NCBI GenBank assembly: GCA_903847205.1
Contig: CAINDA010000025.1
Coordinates: 1 to 64,000 of the forward strand
Source: an uncultured Bacteroidota bacterium
Lineage (GTDB): Bacteria > Bacteroidota > Bacteroidia > 2-12-FULL-35-15
Direction of reading: 5' to 3'
DNA length: 64,000 nucleotides
Below, piece by piece: positions 283 to 53,008 of the stretch (positions within the stretch are counted from its first letter, which is position 1; each line of letters opens with the position of its first letter). The notes beneath the pieces were generated by a model that did not search any database, was not told where the DNA came from, and was given only the letters and a program-made list of their open reading frames with translations. A program made the translations under genes and the position numbers.

Positions 283-738
283 TTAACCTCTAAGTTTATC
301 TAAAAGAGTATTTAACTGATTAATTTCAGTATTGTTCAAAGCGGAGAGACCTTTATCCAGCCGTTCATCTTCTTTTTCTTCTAATTTTTTGAGTAGATTA
401 ATTCCTTTGGCGGTTATTACAACATCCATACTCCGCCTGTCATTTTCCCTGACAGATCTTTCAAGGAGGCCTTTTTTACGAAGCCCTTCAACAATTCTTG
501 ATGCATCGCTCATGCGGTCAAGCATAAGCTCCCGAATGAGTTTTATAGTAACACCTTCAGGATATTTGTTATGTAAAATATTTAAAATGTTATATTGCTG
601 AAGGCTTAATTTATAAGGTTTTAATATATCCGAATGGAATTGAACAATCCATTTGCCGGTAAAAATAAGATTTACCGTAGCTTTATGGTATGTGTTTCTG
701 AAAGGGTTAACCTGGTGTATTTCTTTTTCAAGCAGCAT
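283..738 (-). CDS. MarR family transcriptional regulator
   Basis: A 151-residue protein of usual MarR length. The centre (about residues 43-110) reads as a winged helix: a helix with SLQQYNILNIL, a recognition helix around DRMSDASRIVEGL, and a wing with the ENDRRSMDV turn, where the DRR motif is the family hallmark. Long helices at both ends would form the dimer interface. MarR proteins usually repress neighbouring genes and respond to small ligands or redox state; the ligand cannot be told from sequence. It is the last gene of a minus-strand run, about 140 nt beyond the Fnr-like gene, and probably has its own promoter. Confidence 0.88.
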   Translation of the reverse strand: MLLEKEIHQVNPFRNTYHKATVNLIFTGKWIVQFHSDILKPYKLSLQQYNILNILHNKYPEGVTIKLIRELMLDRMSDASRIVEGLRKKGLLERSVRENDRRSMDVVITAKGINLLKKLEEKEDERLDKGLSALNNTEINQLNTLLDKLRG

Positions 739-875: not shown

Positions 876-1580
876 TTATCCTACACCATATTTCTTTACA
901 ATTTCATACAATCCTTTTTCATCAATTAATTTTATTCCTCTTCCTTTTTTTATGATCAATTTTTTCTTTTCAAATTCGCCGAGCTCCCTGCTCACCTGTT
1001 CTGCTGTAACCCCAGTTAAATCAGCAATTTCCTGCCGTGTTAAAGAAACATTTAATGTCCCGTCATCATCGTCTGCTCCAAAAACTTCTTTAATGAAAAG
1101 TAACGCTTCTGCAATTTTCTCTTTCACATTCATCTGAGTCAGATATTTCATTCTGATTTCTGTTTTTCGCAGTTCACGTGAATAGAACTCAACCAGAAGC
1201 AAGGTGAGTTTTGGGTTATTCATAAATACATCATAAAGTGTATCGTTGTCGATAAAACATATAGTAGTATCGCTTAAGGCTATTGCACTTACTGGATATT
1301 TATCATCCCTGGAACCACGGTGACCCAGCACATGGCCTACAGTGGCCAAACGGACAATCAGCTCTCTGTTCTCTGCTCCCCTTGCAACAATTTTAGCATT
1401 TCCATGCTGAATAAAATAAATTCCTTCAACATAGCCTCCTTCTCTGAAAATACAATCTTCTGCCTGATGATTAATTTGAATTTTTTTAAACTCAATTTTA
1501 TCAATCCAGTCAGATGAACATTGCTGTTTAATGAAACAGGCATCACTGTTGCATTCTTTGCAGCTGATTTTGTTGTTCAT
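876..1580 (-). CDS. Crp/Fnr family regulator with N-terminal Cys cluster
   Basis: A 234-residue regulator with an N-terminal cyclic-nucleotide-binding-like beta-barrel (about 25-140), a dimer helix, and a C-terminal HTH (about 165-225). The recognition helix TAEQVSRELGEF keeps the E..SR pattern that in Fnr reads TTGAT/ATCAA half-sites. The first 21 residues hold four cysteines (C7, C10, C15, C21), and C43 follows. This resembles the [4Fe-4S] oxygen-sensing site of Fnr, although the spacing differs from E. coli. It lies near a respiratory cluster, and its paralog at 10036-10764 shares the GHVLGHRG segment. Fnr-type boxes in the window are candidate targets. Oxygen or NO sensing is inference. 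Confidence 0.85.
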   Translation of the reverse strand: MNNKISCKECNSDACFIKQQCSSDWIDKIEFKKIQINHQAEDCIFREGGYVEGIYFIQHGNAKIVARGAENRELIVRLATVGHVLGHRGSRDDKYPVSAIALSDTTICFIDNDTLYDVFMNNPKLTLLLVEFYSRELRKTEIRMKYLTQMNVKEKIAEALLFIKEVFGADDDDGTLNVSLTRQEIADLTGVTAEQVSRELGEFEKKKLIIKKGRGIKLIDEKGLYEIVKKYGVG

Positions 1581-2153: not shown

Positions 2154-3086
2154 TTATAAATAAAACCGTTTAGTGATATTAAATCCAATTAAATACCGAC
2201 TTTGAGTATAGTCATTTTGGTTAAAGAAGTTGTTTGATTGTGGAAGTATACTTTGGAAGTTGCCGCAAAATATTTGGAATGTATGCGACATCGTTACAAA
2301 TTGCAGTCCAAAGCTTACATTAGGATGCGGGTTATTAGTAGGATGCTGTGTAAGAGGCTGATCATAATTTGCCATGATACCCATACCATCAGTAAGCATA
2401 TAACTTCCCGAAGCCGCAATAGCATAATGAGCGTTGTTCATCTTTGCTTTAATAGTTCCCTCTGTGCTCATATAGCCTTCCACATTATTGAAGTACGATA
2501 AACTTGGTGCTACCTGCAGAGAAAAATTATCAGTAACTTTTCTAGCAATAATTATTTGATTAAAATAGGAAATCCTATCAACATCAGATACAAAATTACC
2601 CGCCTTCGGAATAGTAGATACCGCCATATCGCCAAAATAAGTTACGCTTACCGGGCAGCCATGAGCTACAGCCTGCTTAGCAATTGCATATTTTGCGTTG
2701 CCGTCCCACTGCATCCGTTCTTTGGTAATTCCAAAACCCAGCTGCAGATTATCAATAGGAGTATAGCTTAATCCTAAGTGAATGTTAGCCGGAGCAAATA
2801 CACCGTAAAAATCATTGTATTTGTTATTAATTGTTCCAAAGCGGTGCTGAATGGAAAACTCCAGTGCATTTTTAACCGGCACCATTACAGTTTGGTTGTC
2901 AATAATAAAACTGCCTTTGAAGGTGCTTTTCACACGTTCAACTGCAGCACGTTCAATTGGAACCGCATTGTTCGCGGCCACTTTACTGGTATCCTGCGCA
3001 AAGCTTTGACTGCCGGCAGCTAAAAGCCAAAAGCCAGCAGCAAACAATAAGCAGCGATAATCAGCTTGTTTTATATTTGTTTTCAT
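2154..3086 (-). CDS. DUF5777 family outer-membrane beta-barrel protein
   Basis: A 310-residue protein with a signal peptide (hydrophobic stretch about 10-25, cleavage near SFAQD). It then has alternating beta-strands with aromatic ends, including LEFSIQHRFGTINN, FYGVF and IHLGLSYTPIDNLQLGFGI, which match the DUF5777 beta-barrel pattern, and it ends in a terminal aromatic-hydrophobic pair (FYL) as outer-membrane barrels do. It is the last gene of the NrfD cluster, 85 nt after the small cytochrome gene. The family is common in Bacteroidota next to c-type cytochromes; its role is not known to me. Context suggests a pore or anchor that serves the periplasmic electron carriers. Confidence 0.75.
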   Translation of the reverse strand: MKTNIKQADYRCLLFAAGFWLLAAGSQSFAQDTSKVAANNAVPIERAAVERVKSTFKGSFIIDNQTVMVPVKNALEFSIQHRFGTINNKYNDFYGVFAPANIHLGLSYTPIDNLQLGFGITKERMQWDGNAKYAIAKQAVAHGCPVSVTYFGDMAVSTIPKAGNFVSDVDRISYFNQIIIARKVTDNFSLQVAPSLSYFNNVEGYMSTEGTIKAKMNNAHYAIAASGSYMLTDGMGIMANYDQPLTQHPTNNPHPNVSFGLQFVTMSHTFQIFCGNFQSILPQSNNFFNQNDYTQSRYLIGFNITKRFYL

Positions 3087-3171
3087 TTTATTTTTTTTTA
3101 GTTTTTTAATCTCTTCATGCCCCGCTCAAAAAGAGGGGTGCAGACGAGTTTATTATTTAAAGATTCTTTGT

Positions 3172-3564
3172 TTAGTTTTTCTTTGCACCTTGTTTTATCC
3201 AGGCAAGAGCAAGATTATTGATGTTTCCTGGATTGGTTGCCTGCCCCATCGGCATAGCCGGACTTAGTTTACCTGTTAAGCGCTCGTAAAGGATGCTGCT
3301 TAAGGGATCTTTAACATTGACAAAGTTTCCAGCAGTTAATGAATTGTATGCTTTATCCGAATCTAAATCAGGAGCATGACCTCCAGCTGCATGACAGCCG
3401 CTCAATGCGCAATTTTTAGAAAACAGAGGAACCAGGTCTTTTGAAAAAGAAACTGTTTTGGTAACTACCACCGGCACATCCTTGATGGTAAGAGTTGTAT
3501 CTTTTGCACAACCTGCGATAAACAACACACCCAAAACAACCGCTGTAGTTAATATTTTTTTCAT
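3172..3564 (-). CDS. Small c-type cytochrome-like lipoprotein with CX4CH motif
   Basis: A 130-residue protein with a lipoprotein signal (FIAGC, lipid-modified Cys near residue 19). The mature part has one heme-binding-like motif, CALSGCH (CX4CH rather than CXXCH), followed by PDLDSDKAYNSL and, later, PAMPMGQ, where a Met could be the second heme ligand. CX4CH sites are known from tetraheme cytochromes c3, so covalent heme is plausible. It sits between the b-heme lipoprotein and the DUF5777 barrel in the same operon and is probably a periplasmic electron carrier tethered to a membrane. An unrelated zinc or disulfide role cannot be excluded. Confidence 0.65.
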   Translation of the reverse strand: MKKILTTAVVLGVLFIAGCAKDTTLTIKDVPVVVTKTVSFSKDLVPLFSKNCALSGCHAAGGHAPDLDSDKAYNSLTAGNFVNVKDPLSSILYERLTGKLSPAMPMGQATNPGNINNLALAWIKQGAKKN

Positions 3565-3595
3565 GATGACATAGGTTAATTGTTTTTTAGGATTA

Positions 3596-3625
3596 GGATT
3601 CAGGAATATTGCAACCCCTGAATCC
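3596..3625. repeat. Intercistronic inverted repeat
   Basis: GGATTCAGG at 3596-3604 pairs with CCTGAATCC at 3617-3625 across a 12-nt loop, in the 75-nt gap between the b-heme lipoprotein and the small cytochrome gene. No T-run follows on the minus strand, so it looks like an mRNA-processing or stabilising hairpin rather than a terminator. Confidence 0.55.
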
Positions 3626-3639
3626 TTATTCCTAAATTA

Positions 3640-5085
3640 TTATTTTTTAAAATGCATATGAAGGCCGGCAACAATTGCGTGTTGATTATCTGCACGGTTA
3701 ATCATAGCACCGCAGCCAAATGGCATATCTTCAAGTGTTGAAAAATCTACGTCATTTACTGCATCATTGGTTCCAGACGGACCATTAGATAGTTTACGGC
3801 TTAACAACATTCTCCAGCCTGAGCCAACATATGCTGCATTTGCTGTAACGTCGCCTCGGCTTCCCGTATATGTACCTATAATGCTGCCTGGAATGCAATT
3901 AGCACCATCAATGGCACCGATCTGCTGGTAGTAAAAACTTGATGCGGCATTCCTCGGGTCGATAGTAGTGGCATCTGAAAGTGTAAGTACTCCGAATGAG
4001 TCAACTGCAACAACTTTTTTAGCCAAACCTCCGGCAAGTGTATCGCTCAGCATGATAGCACTGCTTCTGGAAGCAGTGTTGTAAGGATTAGTTCCAAGAG
4101 CCGCTGGAATTACCCAAATAGGAATATTTGCTTTTTTAGATGGTTTGTTGCTGATGGGCATTGTTTGTTTGTTGCTGAACCCGCCGTCTGCTGCATACAC
4201 TCTTGTTGCACCTGGTGATGATACAAGTTTACCTGCTGACTGATATTGAACAGGTATTGAAGCTGATGGACCATTAAGTAACTGCCAATCTCCGTGAACT
4301 TCATTTTTATTTAAGGCACCGCTTTCCCCATAACTGATGCTTGAACCATCATCAATAAAGCAATCGTTTAACTGGTTTGTATTGCATACTTGAAGCATAC
4401 GGCCTCTCCATACATCTAACCTTTCGTTAGGTCCATTAGTGTACATGATACCTCCATCAGCTGCAACAGTTCCACCATAAGTAGAAGCAACGTGGCAGGC
4501 TGCATAGCATGACAACGCATCAAAAGTCTGACAGCTGTGTGCAATGTTCCAAAGGATCACAAATTGATCCTGTGCAAAAGGAGGTCTGTAACTTCCGTCA
4601 GGGCTCAAGTTGGTTAAACTTGATGCAGTTGCTTCCTGAGCCCATCTTTTTGTCATATCGGTTTGAAGAGGATTGAAATACCACTGAGCGCTCATCGCAT
4701 TATGCTGAGGAGTAGTAAATTCAACAAGCATGTATAAATTGGTTGCATCGTACATTGCACGCAGTGATATATCTGTACTGTTGCCAACAAATCCCGTAAA
4801 TGTGTTGTTTCCCAAATCTGGCACTGTTGCGTGTACTGTCAGTTTTGGCGCACTGTTCCAAACTGCTTCAATAGTTCCATCCCAGCGTGCTGCATTGTCG
4901 CCTTGACTTGCAAGAGTTGCTGTTCCTCTCACAACATTAAGTGTGTCTGTGTTTAAAACTGGGGTCGGGGTAGTTGCTGTTGATAAATCAAGCACCTGAT
5001 CATGTTTTGTACAATTGGTCAGCCCCATTAAAATAACTGCTCCCATAATTGGAACAGCTGCTAAATACTTGGTTGTTTTTTTCAT
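3640..5085 (-). CDS. Ethylbenzene dehydrogenase-type heme-binding lipoprotein
   Basis: A 481-residue lipoprotein (signal ending in LTNC near residue 25). The body resembles the EB_dh heme-binding domain found in gamma subunits of type II DMSO-reductase-family enzymes: an early stretch WDGTIEAVW...LTVHATVP, a middle part with LYMLVEFTTPQHN and QDQFVILWNIAHS, and MYTNGPNERLDVWRGRM, the equivalent of the T.GE..DIWHWK region. In that family the domain binds one heme b. It also carries CYAACH (CX3CH), where a c-type site might be expected. There is no molybdenum alpha or iron-sulfur beta subunit of that enzyme family nearby. It may act as a periplasmic electron relay in the cluster. Its own promoter region (5086-5300) contains an Fnr-type box. 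Confidence 0.72.
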   Translation of the reverse strand: MKKTTKYLAAVPIMGAVILMGLTNCTKHDQVLDLSTATTPTPVLNTDTLNVVRGTATLASQGDNAARWDGTIEAVWNSAPKLTVHATVPDLGNNTFTGFVGNSTDISLRAMYDATNLYMLVEFTTPQHNAMSAQWYFNPLQTDMTKRWAQEATASSLTNLSPDGSYRPPFAQDQFVILWNIAHSCQTFDALSCYAACHVASTYGGTVAADGGIMYTNGPNERLDVWRGRMLQVCNTNQLNDCFIDDGSSISYGESGALNKNEVHGDWQLLNGPSASIPVQYQSAGKLVSSPGATRVYAADGGFSNKQTMPISNKPSKKANIPIWVIPAALGTNPYNTASRSSAIMLSDTLAGGLAKKVVAVDSFGVLTLSDATTIDPRNAASSFYYQQIGAIDGANCIPGSIIGTYTGSRGDVTANAAYVGSGWRMLLSRKLSNGPSGTNDAVNDVDFSTLEDMPFGCGAMINRADNQHAIVAGLHMHFKK

Positions 5086-5236
5086 TTTGAATGATTTTAA
5101 AATGTATTGTTTTTGGTTAGTTGGTTAATTGTTTGTTTTGTTTTAGTGTTTTTTTATTTGCCTCTTTTTGTCAGCCTGTTTTTATTGGTTAATGAAGTAT
5201 TCCTTTTTATTACCGGTACAAATTTCTGCGAAAAAC

Positions 5237-5244
5237 CAAACTTA
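5237..5244 (-). promoter_or_regulatory. Candidate -7 element for the b-heme lipoprotein gene
   Basis: The minus strand reads TAAGTTTG, matching the Bacteroidota TAnnTTTG element, about 150 nt upstream of the start codon. The Fnr-type box at 5249-5262 starts five bases upstream, so bound regulator would overlap the promoter spacer, a position that favours repression. This is inference from spacing only. Confidence 0.4.
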
Positions 5245-5248
5245 AAAT

Positions 5249-5285
5249 ATGATTTTTATCAACTTTACAACTGCTTTATCGCAGA
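5249..5285 (-). promoter_or_regulatory. Composite operator copy 3: Fnr-type box plus CTGC palindrome
   Basis: ATGAT-TTTT-ATCAA at 5249-5262, then 7 nt, then CTGC-N6-GCAG starting at 5271 (ACTGC at 5270). The same box, spacing and palindrome occur twice in front of the ferredoxin gene (9659-9695 and 9777-9813). On the gene strand the palindrome lies upstream of the box. A half copy of the CTGCGAAAAA part occurs at about 5224-5235. Confidence 0.6.
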
Positions 5286-5304
5286 AAATTACTACTGGTT
5301 GATT

Positions 5305-5499
5305 TCATTTAACTATTGAATCTGTTTTAATTATACTAATTTTGGACGTACTTATCTTGGCTGAGTCAGTTTTGACTTTCAGAGCATTAAAAGAATCAGT
5401 TTTAATTGTGTTTGTTTTTACAACTGCAGTTTTTACCTTACCAGTTTTTGCCGTATCAGTTTTAACTGCAGTTGTTTTAGTTAACAGCGGTGCTGTTAC
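5305..5499 (-). other. Stop-free Lys/Thr-rich -1 frame extension of the cytochrome gene
   Basis: Directly after the cytochrome c stop codon (5496-5498) the -1 frame stays open for 64 codons and ends at TGA 5305-5307. It encodes a tail of which 27 of 64 residues are Lys or Thr (repeats such as VKTDTAKT, VVKTNTIKTDS). The switch point is an A8 run (5500-5507 on the plus strand as T8) that reads A AAA AAG followed by the stop, the classic slippery heptamer of dnaX. Either programmed -1 frameshifting, transcriptional slippage, a recent frameshift or a base-call error in the homopolymer would explain it. Confidence 0.5.
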
Positions 5500-5933
5500 T
5501 TTTTTTTAGAAAATTCTTTGATGTAGTTTATCACTTGCCAGCGTTGCTCTTCAGTCATTTCTTTTTTGAAAGACGGCATCGGTTTTCTTCCTTCAGTTAT
5601 TTTCCAGAAGATAGCTCCGTCTGTTTGTTTGCCGAAATCCTCTTTTGTAAAATCGCTTACAGGTTTATCTAACTCTGCGCTTTTTGGCCCGTCGCCTTTT
5701 CCTTTTTTACCATGGCAGCTAACGCATGATTTACCAAAAATATCTTTCCCTGCAGCAATACTTTTTTCGTTTGAAGCAACAGGGTTTACTTTTTTATCGG
5801 CATCCGCCGGAGCTGTCCATTTTTCAGGGTTTCCAACGCGCATTGATGTGAATGCAAGAAAGAGTGCCGCCGCACCAATTAAGATAGAACTCGATAATTT
5901 AATTTTGCTGACTTGAATTACAATTGTTTTCAT
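5496..5933 (-). CDS. Monoheme cytochrome c
   Basis: A 145-residue protein with an N-terminal hydrophobic segment (about 12-30) that may be a signal peptide or membrane anchor. One class I cytochrome c domain follows (about 58-140): the heme site SCVSCHGKKGKGDG and a distal ligand in the MPSF segment. The length fits a single-domain carrier of the cbb3-subunit-III-like kind. It is the fourth gene of the NrfD cluster, 103 nt after the Ig-like gene. It ends in KEFSKKK at an A8 tract, after which a 64-codon Lys/Thr-rich frame is open (see 5305-5499), so the true C-terminus may be longer. Likely role: accept electrons from the NrfD/ferredoxin module. Confidence 0.88.
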   Translation of the reverse strand: MKTIVIQVSKIKLSSSILIGAAALFLAFTSMRVGNPEKWTAPADADKKVNPVASNEKSIAAGKDIFGKSCVSCHGKKGKGDGPKSAELDKPVSDFTKEDFGKQTDGAIFWKITEGRKPMPSFKKEMTEEQRWQVINYIKEFSKKK

Positions 5934-6036
5934 AGTGTTTATTTTTTAGTTTTTGTTTGAATTAATTTTCATGCTGCAAATTTGTGAACATTTTAATACG
6001 CCTGAGTTATATAATATTTAATGTAAATTATATAAT

Positions 6037-6924
6037 TCACACATTAGGCATACCGCCTTCTTTTTTTATTTTAAATAATTTTATAACGATGCTAACATAA
6101 ATACTCCACACAATACCAAAGAGTGTTGACAAAGTAATAATGATTGGCCATGGGGCATACACACCCCATAATGCGCGCGGGAAAGGATCCTTGATAATTG
6201 CAAGGGATGTTCCCCAGGCTGCAGGCAATTTACTTTCAATGCTTCCGAATTGTTCATTGTCCTCCATCTTAACTGCAACAGTGATAAGGCCTGCAGTGTC
6301 GCCCGGTATGTTTTTGGAATAGGCGAAAGTAGCGATGCCGTTTTCATCAGTGGTAACTGTATTGTTTTCTCCAGCCGGCATGCTCCCAAATAAGCGCTGA
6401 ACATAAAACTTTAATTCTGCACCTTTTACCGGAACTTCTTTTCCGTCTTTATCCATTTCAGTTAATTTGGCGGTAACCAGATGAGCTGTATCGGCAGGAT
6501 TCAAACTTAAAGTAAGATTTGCTTCCTTGAAATGCATCTGCTCTTCAGTATTTTCATACAGCTTGTCATTTTCAATTTTAGCAACAATGGTAGAAGCCAG
6601 ATTTTCATCCACCGGCAGGCCTTTCTGAAGTTCTATAACCGCACGCCCTTTATTATCAGTACTTGCACTTTTTAGCAGTTGCTGCTCTTTATCATGCACT
6701 GCATAGAAATTCACCTTTGCATTTAAAGCAGGAACAAACCTTCCGTCTTTTTTTACTTTCACAACGGCAACAGCAGTCTTACTGTCAGCCTTTTTGTTAT
6801 ACGACAATCCAATTGTTGCCTCGCTTTTACCCGTTGCTTTTGGCTGGTCCTGCGCAGCTGAGATGTTACAGAACAAACCTGTAATGCTAATCGCAAGAGT
6901 TATTTTTTTTAGAATGCTTTTCAT
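6037..6924 (-). CDS. Ig-like, membrane-anchored exported protein
   Basis: A 295-residue protein of no family I can name. It has a signal peptide (about 8-24, ISAAQD), two Ig-like beta domains (about 38-135 and 140-240), each with a 'G.A.I.L..GLP' or 'NGIATFAYSKNIP' sort of strand pattern like bacterial Ig/Big_1 repeats, and a C-terminal transmembrane helix (about 262-285, WPIIITLSTLFGIVWSIYVSIVIKLF) followed by a basic tail. It would thus hang in the periplasm anchored at the inner membrane. It lies between the NrfD gene and the cytochrome c gene with gaps of 86 and 103 nt, so it probably is a structural or docking subunit of the same complex. Confidence 0.6.
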   Translation of the reverse strand: MKSILKKITLAISITGLFCNISAAQDQPKATGKSEATIGLSYNKKADSKTAVAVVKVKKDGRFVPALNAKVNFYAVHDKEQQLLKSASTDNKGRAVIELQKGLPVDENLASTIVAKIENDKLYENTEEQMHFKEANLTLSLNPADTAHLVTAKLTEMDKDGKEVPVKGAELKFYVQRLFGSMPAGENNTVTTDENGIATFAYSKNIPGDTAGLITVAVKMEDNEQFGSIESKLPAAWGTSLAIIKDPFPRALWGVYAPWPIIITLSTLFGIVWSIYVSIVIKLFKIKKEGGMPNV

Positions 6925-7010
6925 CTTTTTATAATTTTATAATTTGTTAATTGATCTTTTGAAAATTAAATACTTTCATTTTCAAATCCGCTCATTTCCA
7001 AATTGATTTA

Positions 7011-8459
7011 TTAAGCTGGTTGTTTTAATTGTCCGTTACTCACTTTTACTGCTTCTGCCGCTGCTTTAGCATGGTCAGCTATTCTCTGTTTTCCTAATTC
7101 CACAGCAACTTCTTTATCATAATCAATTTCTATACCTTCTTCCACTTCCCATACTGCCATCATTGGGAAAAGTTTTGAAAACATAGTGATAATAAGAAGC
7201 ATCCCTGCTAAACTTGCTGCTTCAACCGAAAACTCAACATAATTTGGAAAATAAGTTGACCACTCTTTTGTAACATCCTGAATAGGAAGGAATGGGTGAA
7301 GCATTGTCGGCACAACAATAAGGTATCTTTTTACCCATGCTCCAATTACAATAACGATGCAGGTAATAACTAGCGGTGTTATTTTTCGCCCCTTAGGGAA
7401 CGACATAATAACGATAGGAATTAATACTGTTCCGAATTGGCATGTCCAGAATATTTTTGAATAATTTCCATAAAACAAATCTGAAAGTAAATGTCCCTCA
7501 GCGGTTGCCATTTTATAAGCTGGTATCCAATATTCATTCATGTTTAAGTAAGCATAAACAAGAGTAAGCGCCAAAACAACTTTTCCAATCAAATCAAAAT
7601 GTCGAGGAGTAAGATATTTTTCAAAGTGATAAATTTTGCGAAATGCTGCCATTCCCAAAATAACTCCTGCAGACCCAGAATACAATGCACCAGCAACAAA
7701 ATAGATACCGAATACAGTACTGTTCCATCCCGGACGAAGTGTCATTGCAAAAATGTAACTTACAACGGTATGCACGGATACTGCCACAGGAATAATTACA
7801 ATTGTCATTGTTCCCATAGTTTTCTCTAATAAGTGCCATTGCGTCTTAGTCCCTTTCCAACCGATGGCCAATTTTGTGTAAAGCCATTTTTTGAATTTTT
7901 TGTAACGTGTATCAACAACAGTTAACCTGTCTCTGCAAAGTGCCATATCTGGTATCATTGGCAGAAAAAGAAAAACTGTACTGCCGGTAAAATAGGTCAT
8001 GATTGAAATAACATCCCACATTAAAGGTGACTGCACTCTTCCGTACATAACAAGGTTTAATATTCTTTCCGGATGACCTAAGTCAATAATTGGCTGAATT
8101 CCCCCAAAGCAAAGAGACACGAAGGTCAACAATTCTGCCGAACGGGTAATCGGTCTTCTCCACTCCTGTTTCGTAATCCGCAGAATTGCCGATACGAGAG
8201 TTCCGGAGTGGCTGATACCTATAAAAAACACAAAAGTTGAAATGTACATTCCCCAAGATACATAATCACGCATTGCAGTTACACCCAAACCATATCTTAG
8301 CTGGCGGATGTAGCAGAATATCCCCCATGCCATAACCGCCAATAAAAACCCAACCCATATTTGAGAGGAGCGTCCAAAAGTTCTTGTAGGGCGAAGACAA
8401 TCTTCGCGAAGGGTTTCTATTTCTTGTTTAAGATCAAATTTTTCAGTTGCCATTTTCAA
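7011..8459 (-). CDS. NrfD/PsrC-family membrane subunit, ActC-like
   Basis: A 482-residue polytopic membrane protein (about ten helices) of the NrfD/PsrC/ActC family, which oxidises or reduces (mena)quinone and passes electrons to a partner iron-sulfur protein. Segments shared with ActC at 16387-17772 include GIxHxGTLxSAxL, a QxWRxxIxRSAE stretch, SPLxWDV, TYF and PDxAxxRDR, so the two are paralogs. The partner is the Tat-exported ferredoxin-like protein encoded just upstream (gap 96 nt, holding a 17-bp hairpin). Nothing in the cluster encodes a molybdopterin catalytic subunit, so the electron acceptor is more likely the cytochromes downstream. The start fits: MKMATEKFDL, though the second Met is also possible. 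Confidence 0.88.
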   Translation of the reverse strand: MKMATEKFDLKQEIETLREDCLRPTRTFGRSSQIWVGFLLAVMAWGIFCYIRQLRYGLGVTAMRDYVSWGMYISTFVFFIGISHSGTLVSAILRITKQEWRRPITRSAELLTFVSLCFGGIQPIIDLGHPERILNLVMYGRVQSPLMWDVISIMTYFTGSTVFLFLPMIPDMALCRDRLTVVDTRYKKFKKWLYTKLAIGWKGTKTQWHLLEKTMGTMTIVIIPVAVSVHTVVSYIFAMTLRPGWNSTVFGIYFVAGALYSGSAGVILGMAAFRKIYHFEKYLTPRHFDLIGKVVLALTLVYAYLNMNEYWIPAYKMATAEGHLLSDLFYGNYSKIFWTCQFGTVLIPIVIMSFPKGRKITPLVITCIVIVIGAWVKRYLIVVPTMLHPFLPIQDVTKEWSTYFPNYVEFSVEAASLAGMLLIITMFSKLFPMMAVWEVEEGIEIDYDKEVAVELGKQRIADHAKAAAEAVKVSNGQLKQPA

Positions 8460-8513
8460 AAGTTTTTAAATTGTTTTAATTTTTTCATTTGCTGATGTTC
8501 ATTGTCAGTGAGG

Positions 8514-8548
8514 ATATCTGACCATAGGTTAAACCTATGGTCAGATAT
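8514..8548. repeat. 17-bp perfect inverted repeat between the ferredoxin and NrfD genes
   Basis: ATATCTGACCATAGGTT at 8514-8530 and its exact complement at 8532-8548 are separated by one base. The hairpin begins 7 bases past the ferredoxin stop codon. No T-run follows on the minus strand, so it probably protects or processes the mRNA and could set the ratio of ferredoxin to NrfD; partial termination is an alternative. Confidence 0.75.
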
Positions 8549-8555
8549 TACTGAA

Positions 8556-9569
8556 TTACATCTGCATACTTCCCATGTCCATTTTCTTTGGTTTGGAGTC
8601 TTTCTTTTCTCCGCTTTCATCTTCTTTCATTTCGGGTACCGGGTATTTTCTGTTCTTTGGCGGCAAATAATATACGCGCGCCTCAGTTCCCAATTCTTCG
8701 AGATGTCTGTAACCATTATTTTCTTCTAACAGCTGGCTTAATTTCACAGTTACTCCAGATCCGTTGGTCACAGCATCTTCATTCTGGTCGCCGAAATAAA
8801 TAACATCCATCGGGCAGCCGCTTACACAGTGAGGCATTTTGCCTTGTCTGAGCATATCCGGGCAGAAATCACATTTTTCAACTGTTCCCATCTTGCGCGG
8901 AAGGCCTCTTTCTGGTGAATAAGGGATATTGCCAACTGCGGCAACTTCCTCTGCGCTCGGTGCGCTCCAGTTAAAGAAACGTGTTGAATAAGGGCAAGCT
9001 GCCATACAAGAACGGCATCCGATGCAGCGTTCATTATCTATTAGTACAATTCCGTCCTGTCTTTTGAAAGTTGCATTTACCGGGCAAACTTTTGTGCAAG
9101 GAGGGTTATCGCAATGAAAACATGGTTTTGGAAAGAAATAAGGCGCTGTGGCTTCTGATTCTTTCATCTTGAAAACTTTGAGCCATTCTCGCTCAGAAGG
9201 AATGTAATGCGCGGTCTGGCAGGCTTCGGTGCATTTTTTGCAGCCATCGCATTTTGCAAGGTCAATCACCATCACAAACTTTTTGTTGGCAATCCCACGG
9301 CGCGCTTCTGTCATTGATACTGGCGGCATATTACATTCCTGCAGGTGGTTAACATCTGCCTCATACACCTTACCGTCGCCTGTATTGAGAACTTTAACTT
9401 TTTCGCCTGGTTCTTTTTCCGAAGAAAAAACTTTCCCCAAGCCCCCGCCTACTACTGTAAGTCCTGCCGCAAGGGCACCAAACTTAAGGAAATTTCGTCT
9501 TCCAGCCTCATTGGATTCTGGGTTGGTTTCGTTTCCGTTTTCTTTATTATCTTCCGTTAGCTGTGACAT
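8556..9569 (-). CDS. Tat-exported four-cluster ferredoxin-like subunit (PsrB/DsrO type)
   Basis: A 337-residue protein. A twin-arginine signal GRRNFLKFGALAAG lies at about 23-36. The body has four cysteine groups: CDGCKKCTEAC, CFHCDNPPCTKVCP, CIGCRSCMAACP and CDFCPDMLRQGKMPHCVSGCP, enough for four [4Fe-4S] clusters, as in PsrB/DsrO/NrfC. The third group is complete, unlike the equivalent group in ActB, where one Cys is missing. The C-terminus is Lys/Met-rich (KKMDMGSMQM), which is unusual and might bind a metal. It is the first gene of the NrfD cluster and would carry electrons between the NrfD quinone site and periplasmic cytochromes. Two composite operators lie upstream. Confidence 0.9.
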   Translation of the reverse strand: MSQLTEDNKENGNETNPESNEAGRRNFLKFGALAAGLTVVGGGLGKVFSSEKEPGEKVKVLNTGDGKVYEADVNHLQECNMPPVSMTEARRGIANKKFVMVIDLAKCDGCKKCTEACQTAHYIPSEREWLKVFKMKESEATAPYFFPKPCFHCDNPPCTKVCPVNATFKRQDGIVLIDNERCIGCRSCMAACPYSTRFFNWSAPSAEEVAAVGNIPYSPERGLPRKMGTVEKCDFCPDMLRQGKMPHCVSGCPMDVIYFGDQNEDAVTNGSGVTVKLSQLLEENNGYRHLEELGTEARVYYLPPKNRKYPVPEMKEDESGEKKDSKPKKMDMGSMQM

Positions 9570-9658: not shown

Positions 9659-9695
9659 ATGATTTTTATCATGGGAGAATCTGCTTTTTCGCAGA
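9659..9695 (-). promoter_or_regulatory. Composite operator copy 1: Fnr-type box plus CTGC palindrome
   Basis: A perfect inverted repeat ATGAT-TTTT-ATCAT at 9659-9672, 7 nt, then TCTGC-N6-GCAGA at 9680-9695. Box to ferredoxin start is about 90 nt. The box resembles an Fnr/Crp site and the second palindrome could be bound by another factor or form a hairpin. Confidence 0.7.
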
Positions 9696-9776: not shown

Positions 9777-9813
9777 ATGATTTAGGTCATACAACAATCT
9801 GCCTTTTCGCAGA
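9777..9813 (-). promoter_or_regulatory. Composite operator copy 2: Fnr-type box plus CTGC palindrome
   Basis: ATGAT-TTAG-GTCAT at 9777-9790, 7 nt, then TCTGC-N6-GCAGA at 9798-9813. Same orientation and spacing as copy 1, which lies 118 nt away. The two copies and the flanking TTTTCGCAGAAAT sequence look like a duplicated module. Confidence 0.65.
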
Positions 9814-10035: not shown

Positions 10036-10764
10036 TCAGGAGATGAAATGCATTTTTGGAACAAACTTAAAGTTATAGATAACCAGCATTTGCCGCAATC
10101 CTTCTTCATTTGTTATTCTTATTTTTTTCCCTTCTTTTGCAACGAGTTTTTCTTTTTCAAAATCAGTAAGATTCCGAATAACCTGCTCAACATTGGTTCC
10201 GCAGATGTCCGCGATATCGGCCCTTGTAATATTTGCATTCAATATCTCTCCGCTGGAATTGTAACCGAAAACATCTTTCAGGTATAAGAGAGCAAAAGCA
10301 ACTCTGTCGCGCACCGTCATTTGGGCTAAATAGGTCATTCTTGCTTCTATTCCACGAAGTTCTTCAGAATAAAAAAGCATTAGTTTAACTGTAAAATGAG
10401 GATTATGAAAAAATGCTTTGGAAATAGTTTCATTATCCACAAAACAAATCACCGAGTCATCCATTGCAATAGCGCTGATAGGATAGGTCTCTCCTCCAAA
10501 TCCGCGATGCCCTAAAACATGACCGTCTGTTGCTAATCTGACAATATGCTCTTTGTTATTTAAACCGTTTGAAACAACTTTTATTTTACCGCGTTTTACA
10601 AAATAAAGGCCGTTCACCAAATCACCGGCATTAAAAACATATTGCCCTTTTTCATAAGAGGTTTCTGTCTTGTGCCCCTCAATCAATTGTATCCACTCGT
10701 TCGAACATAATTTCAGGAAACAATTGGGGCTGACGCAGGTAATACAAGAATTTGAATTTTCCAT
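10036..10764 (-). CDS. Crp/Fnr family regulator with N-terminal Cys cluster
   Basis: A 242-residue paralog of the regulator at 876-1580, sharing the GHVLGHRG segment, the sensory barrel, dimer helix and C-terminal HTH. Four cysteines lie at C7, C10, C15 and C20, again suggestive of an Fe-S sensor. The recognition helix differs (NVEQVIRNLTDF in place of TAEQVSRELGEF), so DNA preference may differ. The C-terminus runs a little longer (FKFVPKMHFIS). It stands between the NrfD cluster and the alternative complex III operon, transcribed away from the latter, well placed to control both. A CCCTGT/ACAGGG hairpin at 10805-10821 lies just upstream. Confidence 0.86.
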   Translation of the reverse strand: MENSNSCITCVSPNCFLKLCSNEWIQLIEGHKTETSYEKGQYVFNAGDLVNGLYFVKRGKIKVVSNGLNNKEHIVRLATDGHVLGHRGFGGETYPISAIAMDDSVICFVDNETISKAFFHNPHFTVKLMLFYSEELRGIEARMTYLAQMTVRDRVAFALLYLKDVFGYNSSGEILNANITRADIADICGTNVEQVIRNLTDFEKEKLVAKEGKKIRITNEEGLRQMLVIYNFKFVPKMHFIS

Positions 10765-11644: not shown

Positions 11645-12895
11645 ATGGATACAATTTTCATGATACCCCAAAAAAAACTTCTGGCAATTATTTCCTTCCT
11701 GTTTTTATCATTTCTTATCAATTTCAATACTGCTTCTGCACAAGACGCCGAAAAACTATTTAAACAAAACTGCGCAGTCTGCCATAGTTTAGGCAAGAAT
11801 AAAGTTGTTGGTCCCGGTCTAGAGGGAGTTGGCTCCCGTGTTCCAAATGATGCTTGGCTTGCAAAATGGATTAAAAATAACGTAGAAGTTCTAAAAAGCG
11901 GTGATGCTTATGCAGCGAAAATTTTTGCTGAAAACAATAAAGGAAGCATGACTGTCTTCGCCGATTTGAAAGACAATGAAATAACCGCTCTTATTGCTTA
12001 TATAAAAAACCCACCTAAACCGAAAGAGGAAGCTGTAAAAAGTTCTGGTTCCGCTGCAAAGGAAGAAGAAAAGGGAGTTAACCCTCTTGCTGTATTGATT
12101 GGAATAATTGGTTTTTTAGTGATAATAATCGGAGTACTTCGCGGAGTGCGTCATACGCTGCAAAATTTACAAAATGAAAAAGAAGGCAAACCGGAAGAAG
12201 ATGCCATAGGTCCATGGAAAGAAATTAAAAACTGGATGGCATTCCATAAACGAACTGTTGCAGTTATTGCACTTTTTCTTCTTGGAGGAGTGTTATCAGC
12301 AACATGGGACGGTTTGATGGGAATAGGTGTTTACGAAGGTTATCACCCGACTCAGCCTATTGCATTCTCTCATAAAATTCATGCCGGCGATAATGCAATT
12401 AACTGCCAATACTGTCATTCAGGGGTTGAAAGAAGTAAAACAGCAGGCATTCCAACAGTTAATGTATGTATGAACTGTCACAAAGGAATTTCAAAAGGCC
12501 CGGTTACAGGCACTGCTGAAATTGCAAAAATATATGAAGCAGCCGGCTGGAATGCTGAGAAGGGTATTTATGACAAACCTCAGAAACCTATTGAGTGGGT
12601 TAAAGTTCACAACCTTCCCGATTTCGTATTCTTCAGCCACCAGCAGCACGTTAAAGTGGGCAAGCAGGAATGTGCTTCCTGCCATGGCGATGTTAAAGTA
12701 ATGACCACAGTTCAGCAGATGAAACCATTAACAATGGGATGGTGCATCGACTGCCACAAAAAAACAGAAGTTCCGGGAATGAAAGACAACCCGTATTACG
12801 AAAGCCTGCATAAAAAATTAGCGGAAAAATATAAGGGGCAGCCAATTACAGTGGATAAAATGGGCGGCATTGAATGCGCAAAATGTCATTATTAA
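11645..12895 (+). CDS. actA: ActA, multiheme cytochrome c of alternative complex III
   Basis: A 416-residue protein with a signal peptide (to about TASAQD). It carries six CXXCH motifs: CAVCH near residue 42 in an N-terminal monoheme cytochrome domain, then CQYCH, CMNCH, CASCH, CIDCH and CAKCH (about 253-412) in the pentaheme region typical of ActA. A Pro/Lys-rich linker and transmembrane helix (about 145-165), plus a second hydrophobic segment near 200-215, lie between. It passes electrons from ActB to ActE and the oxidase. First gene of the operon. A second Met five codons on (MIPQKK) may be the real start because it gives a more usual signal peptide. Confidence 0.93.
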   Translation: MDTIFMIPQKKLLAIISFLFLSFLINFNTASAQDAEKLFKQNCAVCHSLGKNKVVGPGLEGVGSRVPNDAWLAKWIKNNVEVLKSGDAYAAKIFAENNKGSMTVFADLKDNEITALIAYIKNPPKPKEEAVKSSGSAAKEEEKGVNPLAVLIGIIGFLVIIIGVLRGVRHTLQNLQNEKEGKPEEDAIGPWKEIKNWMAFHKRTVAVIALFLLGGVLSATWDGLMGIGVYEGYHPTQPIAFSHKIHAGDNAINCQYCHSGVERSKTAGIPTVNVCMNCHKGISKGPVTGTAEIAKIYEAAGWNAEKGIYDKPQKPIEWVKVHNLPDFVFFSHQQHVKVGKQECASCHGDVKVMTTVQQMKPLTMGWCIDCHKKTEVPGMKDNPYYESLHKKLAEKYKGQPITVDKMGGIECAKCHY

Positions 12896-52530: not shown

Positions 52531-52929
52531 TCAGCAGCTACTCCCCATTGATTGTTCTTTTAATGTCTCATTCATTTCTTCAGCATTATAATCGAGCTCA
52601 GAGAGTTTCCAATTCTTTTCAGCGATTGATGACACCCATGAGCTTTCTGATTTTTTCAAAACCCGGAGATTTACACCAAAATTTTTCCTGAAATGCTGTT
52701 CGAGAATGCGCACTTTTTGGCTGCCATTAATACTTACGCGCCCTGATATATGCGTATGGCGGATTTCGCCCAACGTTTTATTTGTATCAGTAATTTGATT
52801 TTCTTTTGCAAATATTTTATTTTCCTTTAATTCAAACCCGAAAAATACTAGTTTAAGATAAGGAAAATGACTCCGGAATTCTTTCTCAATTTCGTAAAGC
52901 CTGCTGCTATCATCAATGATGATTTCCAT
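52531..52929 (-). CDS. Unknown conserved-looking protein upstream of UspA
   Basis: A 132-residue soluble protein, no family recognised. Mixed alpha/beta with YLKLVFFGFELKENKIFAKENQI, a central HTHISGRVSINGSQKVRILEQHFRKNFG, and a C-terminus ending GSSC. Acidic at the end. It lies 39 nt ahead of uspA and behind an Fnr-type box (53009-53022), so it is a candidate low-oxygen gene. Confidence 0.6.
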   Translation of the reverse strand: MEIIIDDSSRLYEIEKEFRSHFPYLKLVFFGFELKENKIFAKENQITDTNKTLGEIRHTHISGRVSINGSQKVRILEQHFRKNFGVNLRVLKKSESSWVSSIAEKNWKLSELDYNAEEMNETLKEQSMGSSC

Positions 52930-53008
52930 TATTTCACGATTTAATAATTAGCATCGCAAATATGACCGCTATTACGTAAATGGCGAATGATGCCGGTCAC
53001 AAGTTAAT

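Follow-up and report, generated by a model that had tools for sequence, protein, structure and literature searches.

Introduction

Pairs of an NrfD-type membrane subunit and an iron-sulfur (Fe-S) protein that have no molybdenum subunit are common, and they occur in NrfABCD, MccACD, NhcABCD, and DsrMKJOP (PMC8076601). Here we analyze a 64,000-nucleotide (nt) stretch of DNA from an uncultured Bacteroidota bacterium (positions 1 to 64,000 of contig CAINDA010000025.1), which we call the window. It carries a row of seven minus-strand genes that encode a Fe-S protein, NrfD, an immunoglobulin (Ig)-like protein, a cytochrome c, an EB_dh lipoprotein, a small lipoprotein cytochrome, and a DUF5777 barrel. 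An earlier reading of the letters alone (the original prediction) had placed this row at 2154–9569, and we found all seven genes at that span, with family assignments that agree (Table 1). With about as much confidence as doubt, we propose that the set is an Fnr-controlled, molybdenum-free, low-oxygen menaquinol dehydrogenase that feeds a three-heme relay to outer-membrane lipoproteins.

Among the described systems, the NrfD half is most similar to alternative complex III (ACIII; ActABCDEF). The NrfD is nearest to ActC, the Fe-S subunit resembles the ferredoxin half of ActB, the cytochrome c resembles ActE, and the predicted quinone site is likewise on the periplasmic side. Unlike ACIII, the set has no pentaheme ActA, no molybdopterin-like half of ActB, no ActD, and no second NrfD (ActF); its NrfD has Asp instead of His at the quinone position of transmembrane helix 2; and it adds the Ig-like protein and the putative outer-membrane genes. 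The genome also encodes an ACIII of its own, which starts at position 11645. The idea of a second, simplified ACIII-like quinol oxidoreductase was half right: the similarity of NrfD to ActC stands, and the parts that are specific to ACIII are absent from the seven genes.

NrfABCD, MccACD, and NhcABCD also have an NrfC/NrfD-type pair that trades electrons with c-type cytochromes, but the window's set has monoheme CX3CH and CX4CH lipoproteins instead of a multiheme catalytic cytochrome. Given these precedents, the original prediction was correct that the pair lacks a molybdenum subunit here and overstated how odd this is. A DsrMKJOP complex is not indicated either: the Fe-S protein scored 182.1 bits against the DsrO model (cut-off 200; Pfam/NCBIfam search), the DsrP score was 117.4 versus 350, and the cluster has no M, K, or J genes. 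EbdC and NxrC share the fold of the window's EB_dh protein, which differs from them in being a lipoprotein, in having about 270 residues of insertions and an invariant CX3CH and His, and in lacking molybdenum or Fe-S partner subunits. The molybdenum alpha subunit of EbdABC, NxrABC, and NarGHI (dimethyl sulfoxide (DMSO)-reductase type II) was not found here.

As in MtrCAB and Cyc2, heme proteins are encoded with an outer-membrane barrel and are tied to a quinol dehydrogenase. The Cyc2 barrel has 16 strands, and Cyc2 is a cytochrome domain fused to a porin. The window has only monoheme proteins and a 12-stranded barrel, these are encoded by separate genes, and we saw no sequence match to either system. 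The same families of barrel and small cytochrome are found, as compactly arranged, in a Bacteroidota trio of YceI, a monoheme lipoprotein, and DUF5777. The window differs in having EB_dh in place of YceI and in the attached NrfD module.

Results

The gene set recurs across the Bacteroidota in two orders

Scanning genomes with EB_dh alone (tight alignment) gave 80 loci, all from Bacteroidota or from unclassified uncultured bacteria. According to the record titles, their habitats include lakes, permafrost, and soil. The named strains among them (Limnovirga soli, Mucilaginibacter frigoritolerans, and Ferruginibacter paludis) are cultured, which makes the system experimentally testable. We counted synteny on 47 loci with long flanks, and we refer to EB_dh, the small cytochrome, and the DUF5777 barrel as the trio. 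EB_dh and the barrel were together in all 47 loci, and the Fe-S/NrfD genes were present in 46. The Ig-like protein is also part of the module in relatives. The order in the window (order A: Fe-S, NrfD, Ig, cytochrome, EB_dh, small cytochrome, barrel) is recurrent, and so is a second one (order B: EB_dh, small cytochrome, barrel, cytochrome, a 90-amino-acid (aa) open reading frame (ORF) with a twin-arginine translocation (Tat) signal, Fe-S, NrfD, Ig). Looking for the same gene order in other Bacteroidota had been proposed as a check, and the order is conserved, in these two forms. Because the set recurs across the Bacteroidota, we conclude that it is a genuine unit and not a chance arrangement.

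Loci of order B encode the Tat signal region apart from the rest of the Fe-S protein, in an ORF of about 90 aa (L133:13908-14180, and likewise in 32 other loci). The Fe-S proteins of this order are missing one Cys of cluster 1, which suggests a [3Fe-4S] cluster. The window's protein has the second Cys of this cluster (C110), which is found in only 13 of 70 relatives.

In a tree of NrfD, the trio-linked proteins are split over several clades with trio-free modules in between, and the tree forces five changes for order A and seven for order B (with a few long rows in the tree, the count of joinings is approximate). This implies that the trio and the NrfD module were joined several times independently, and repeated joining of the two halves argues for a working link between them. 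In the window's genome, the trio may have been acquired by transfer, as the nearest EB_dh relatives are in other families (62–67% identity) and sampled members of the same genus have no EB_dh or only a distant one. In the open-access literature (subscription journals were not covered), we found no description of this seven-gene cluster and no mention of DUF5777.

A quinone-binding NrfD and three putative c-type hemes

The nearest solved relatives of the window's NrfD are the ActC subunits of ACIII (206 bits). Its quinone-site residues D126, S144, and D149, whose roles we took from PMC8076601, are at least 99% conserved and align to H131, S157, and D162 of the genome's own ActC. Asp at the position of the ActC His is also found in DsrP, Qrc, and Psr (PMC8076601). 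Together with a Tat-motif Fe-S partner that has four predicted clusters, these residues identify an NrfD-type quinone oxidoreductase module, and the quinone link that had been proposed for NrfD holds up.

The predicted structure of the EB_dh protein (mean predicted local distance difference test (pLDDT) score of 74) matched EbdC with Z = 17.5 (199 residues, root-mean-square deviation (rmsd) 2.6) and NxrC with Z = 16.7 (211 residues, rmsd 3.0). These scores are far higher than for any unrelated fold, so the model places the lipoprotein in the EB_dh fold of these gamma subunits. The heme b of EB_dh proteins is bound non-covalently, by Met/Lys ligands. The candidate ligand Met111 is present in 63 of 84 sequences; C193-x3-C197-H198 and the distant His469 are each present in all 84. 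Because both are invariant, the heme is probably c-type rather than b. An atypical heme motif of this form, CX3CH, has been recorded in the quinol dehydrogenases CymA and ImcH (PMC6295460). The original prediction of a b-heme EB_dh lipoprotein thus survives as to the lipoprotein and its fold, and the b-type heme is doubtful.

The CX4CH motif of the small lipoprotein is conserved in 95 of 100 sequences (with the Met-Pro motif in most), and the CXXCH and Met119 of cytochrome c are conserved in 82 of 82. Each of the three proteins has one heme motif, which suggests a series of three c-type hemes.

No molybdenum partner in the genome

The window's assembly is rated 100% complete (a tool's estimate), and the model for the molybdenum subunit of the DMSO-reductase family (PF00384) had no matches anywhere in it; control genomes were positive. 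PF00384 also had no matches in five other genomes that carry the set (completeness was not given for four of these). The closest genomes with type-A clusters have one strong match each, to a protein of 900–940 aa that adjoins a 550-aa NuoEF-like gene and FdhD/Mo-cofactor genes. From its sequence and neighbors, we read this protein as a cytoplasmic NAD-dependent formate dehydrogenase. Since PF00384 is absent from this genome and from five other carriers, and the closest genomes have only a formate dehydrogenase, the EB_dh protein is not a gamma subunit that awaits its partner, at least for enzymes of the DMSO-reductase family. The lack of a molybdenum subunit, which had been claimed for the neighborhood of these genes, extends to the whole genome. 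This contradicts the suggestion of a scaffold for an enzyme encoded elsewhere, as far as molybdenum enzymes are concerned. The genome also had no match to the nitrite reductase NrfA (PF02335; the E. coli control was positive) or to NirK.

Probable Fnr-type control

Palindromes of the Fnr/Crp type lie upstream of the Fe-S gene and of EB_dh (Table 1); the latter is separated from the cytochrome c gene by a gene-free gap of 410 nt. Further TGAYNNNNRTCA sites precede the ACIII genes (11420 and 11483) and the cbb3 oxidase operon (48701). Allowing one mismatch, we counted 19 matches to the 14-mer in the window versus 8.4 expected, and none of 100 shuffles reached 19. Among relatives, TGAYNNNNRTCA is found within 250 nt upstream of EB_dh in 46 of 62 regions; in a first-order Markov control, the mean was 1.43 regions and the maximum was 6. 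The sites in relatives cluster near -104 and -82, and among 22 pairs, 15 are spaced by exactly 22 nt. A 22-nt pair of TGAYNNNNRTCA sites is also found at 52987/53009, preceding a small ORF (52531-52929).

Both Fnr-like regulators in the window carry Crp/Fnr domains and the N-terminal motif CX2CX4CX3-5C, as expected at the sequence level for the FNR type, and most regulators that are linked to window-type clusters have this motif as well. The operators indicate that the operon is under Fnr-type control. They also suggest that ACIII, cbb3, the seven-gene operon, and the ORF at 52531-52929 form one low-oxygen regulon in the window. Because the sites are found in the window and in relatives and are accompanied by Fnr-like regulators, the system is most likely turned on alongside ACIII and cbb3 when oxygen is low, which supports the proposal of low-oxygen expression.

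Table 1. Coordinates of the seven genes, the regulators, and the operator sites in the window
Feature	Position	Strand	Details
Fe-S subunit, DsrO/NrfC/ActB2-like	8556..9569	-	Fer4_11 1e-22; Tat signal RRNFLKFG; 16 Cys, for four clusters
NrfD quinone-binding membrane subunit, nearest ActC of ACIII	7011..8459	-	PF03916 5e-30; TTG start
Ig-like periplasmic protein (Big_1-like), C-terminal transmembrane anchor	6037..6924	-	33.9 bits, cut-off 34.9
Monoheme cytochrome c, resembles ActE	5496..5933	-	CXXCH, Met119
EB_dh-fold lipoprotein, invariant CX3CH and His469	3640..5085	-	33.0 bits, Pfam cut-off 33.3 (borderline)
Small lipoprotein cytochrome, CX4CH and Met-Pro motif	3172..3564	-	
DUF5777 outer-membrane barrel, 12 strands predicted	2154..3086	-	5e-68
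Fnr-like regulator, N-terminal CX2CX4CX5C	876..1580	-	
Fnr-like regulator, N-terminal CX2CX4CX4C	10036..10764	-	
MarR-family regulator	283..738	-	in relatives likewise adjoins type-A clusters
Fnr/Crp-type palindrome ATGATTTTTATCAT	9659..9672		upstream of Fe-S gene
Fnr/Crp-type palindrome ATGATTTAGGTCAT	9777..9790		upstream of Fe-S gene
Fnr/Crp-type palindrome ATGATTTTTATCAA	5249..5262		upstream of EB_dh

A proposed electron route and its alternatives

In the route that we favor, NrfD would oxidize menaquinol at the periplasmic face and pass the electrons to the Tat-exported Fe-S subunit. The monoheme cytochrome c would then ferry them over the periplasm to the CX3CH heme of EB_dh and to the small CX4CH cytochrome; this direction of flow and order of carriers is the one that we infer. 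Both heme lipoproteins would sit at the outer membrane beside the 12-stranded barrel, the final acceptor would be used at or through that membrane, and the Ig-like protein would anchor or dock the periplasmic parts. If so, many Bacteroidota of soil and fresh water that are treated as plain aerobes would have an electron chain that is conserved and regulated by oxygen. An extracellular acceptor would open to this very abundant phylum a way to respire with humics, metals, or surface enzymes, one that current searches for multiheme cytochromes overlook.

A bolder form of this proposal is that it represents a Bacteroidota-specific kind of export, in which CX3CH/CX4CH monoheme lipoproteins and a narrow 12-stranded barrel carry quinol electrons to a cell-surface acceptor without any multiheme cytochrome, and in which interchangeable outer modules are set on one NrfD core. 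The modules would be EB_dh, a porin with a monoheme lipoprotein, and, in one genome, an ArrA-like enzyme with a sorting domain of the type IX secretion system (T9SS). We hold this form only tentatively and would sooner doubt it than accept it. At locus L080, the trio is near such an ArrA-like enzyme (L080:1177-5925), with a T9SS sorting domain at the end of its Fe-S subunit (a model hit); of all our observations, this arrangement hints most strongly that the trio works for the outside of the cell, although with one genome it is a hint and not a rule. The T9SS-tagged enzyme may be a molybdenum enzyme of Bacteroidota that is exposed on the cell surface. Among 394 genomes, the ArrA-like enzyme of genome G042 has a homologue only in G093; the trio does not adjoin it there, and it ends in a C-terminal stretch that is similar, as judged by eye.

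Several observations on the outer-membrane parts weigh against electron export. The model of the DUF5777 protein (pLDDT 88, 12 strands) matches KdgM/NanC, COG4313, and FapF with Z of 17–18. With the predicted 12 strands, the barrel is too narrow to enclose a cytochrome in the way that MtrB does. DUF5777 is present in 62 of 148 genomes sampled across the phylum, and its neighbors are mostly YceI lipoproteins, often with a small heme lipoprotein (L193/L195, L197-L225). The genome's own second copy is beside a YceI-like protein (by similarity) and has no cytochrome. EB_dh seems to take the place of YceI in this cluster, and the barrel may let a small molecule through, or hold one, instead of conducting electrons. 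Also, the N-termini of the lipoproteins (CTKxDQV and CxKD) fall short of the K-(D/E)2 signal near the +1 Cys, which marks lipoproteins for export to the surface and was defined in other families (PMC5080379). The lipobox Cys is 99–100% conserved, and Lys is found at +3 in 76 of 83 and in 90 of 100 lipoproteins, with only one acidic residue. Within the barrel, H81, K132, and K183 are 100% conserved and H268 is 99% conserved (105 sequences). We considered a bis-His heme inside the barrel and do not claim it, because the strand layout puts H81 and H268 at opposite strand ends. Searches of the Protein Data Bank with the barrel and with the Ig-like protein gave zero sequence matches.

An alternative explanation is that the two halves have separate functions. 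The Fe-S, NrfD, Ig, and cytochrome c proteins would be a mini-ACIII that feeds cbb3 at low oxygen, and the trio would be a redox-dependent unit for import or ligand binding, perhaps a variant of the YceI/monoheme/DUF5777 trio that handles a quinone-like or other hydrophobic molecule. The similarities to ActC and ActE fit this well, as do the usual pairing of DUF5777 with YceI and a barrel fold like that of solute channels; also, the four-gene half occurs without the trio, and in a few loci the trio has no adjacent NrfD. But the halves are together in 46 of 47 loci, appear to have been joined repeatedly, and share an operator, and we consider separate functions a minority prospect. We judge it unlikely that electrons flow inward, from a surface donor oxidized by the heme lipoproteins to cytochrome c and on to the cbb3 or caa3 oxidase, or to quinone via NrfD. 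Both oxidases are encoded in the window, the cbb3 operon has the same operator, and NrfD enzymes are able to work in both directions. A monoheme cytochrome with a barrel also recalls the Cyc2 iron oxidases (PMC6344600), but there is no cytochrome-porin fusion or 16-strand barrel here, and the relatives belong to lineages of heterotrophs (Mucilaginibacter, Ferruginibacter, and Limnovirga) with no known inorganic donor. Far less probable is a role of the set as adaptor for a molybdenum enzyme whose gene is elsewhere. Such enzymes have EB_dh domains as their gamma subunits, and the trio adjoins the ArrA-like enzyme in G042, but the lack of PF00384 in a genome rated complete and in five other carriers, and the cytoplasmic NAD-type formate dehydrogenase that is all the nearest relatives carry, leave little room for it.

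Other arrangements of the NrfD core and the trio

The four-gene NrfD core, which also occurs alone, is found in three loci beside a porin-like protein of about 405 aa and a 90-aa lipoprotein with CXXCH (L035:4822-6353, L072:3914-5446, and L073:14294-15800). By sequence, these two proteins would be a second kind of barrel-plus-monoheme pair. At L050:1-9948, the Ig and cytochrome c parts of the core are fused in one ORF, and the core adjoins NarK and a NarG-like nitrate reductase. The window's own genome has a second Fe-S/NrfD/Ig/cytochrome module on contig C26 (L032:8380-16975); after it come a HemA-like gene and genes for a beta-propeller-like protein, for a cytochrome in which CXXCH occurs 11 times, and for an Fnr-like regulator. 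An ArrA-like enzyme whose Fe-S subunit has a C-terminus similar to that at L080 is encoded at L188:1422-6281, and a TorD chaperone accompanies the ArrA-like enzymes. In some relatives, HmuY-like heme-binding lipoproteins (eight loci; e.g., L161:2341-2988) or TonB-dependent receptors (eight loci; e.g., L160:6565-8646) are encoded upstream of EB_dh.

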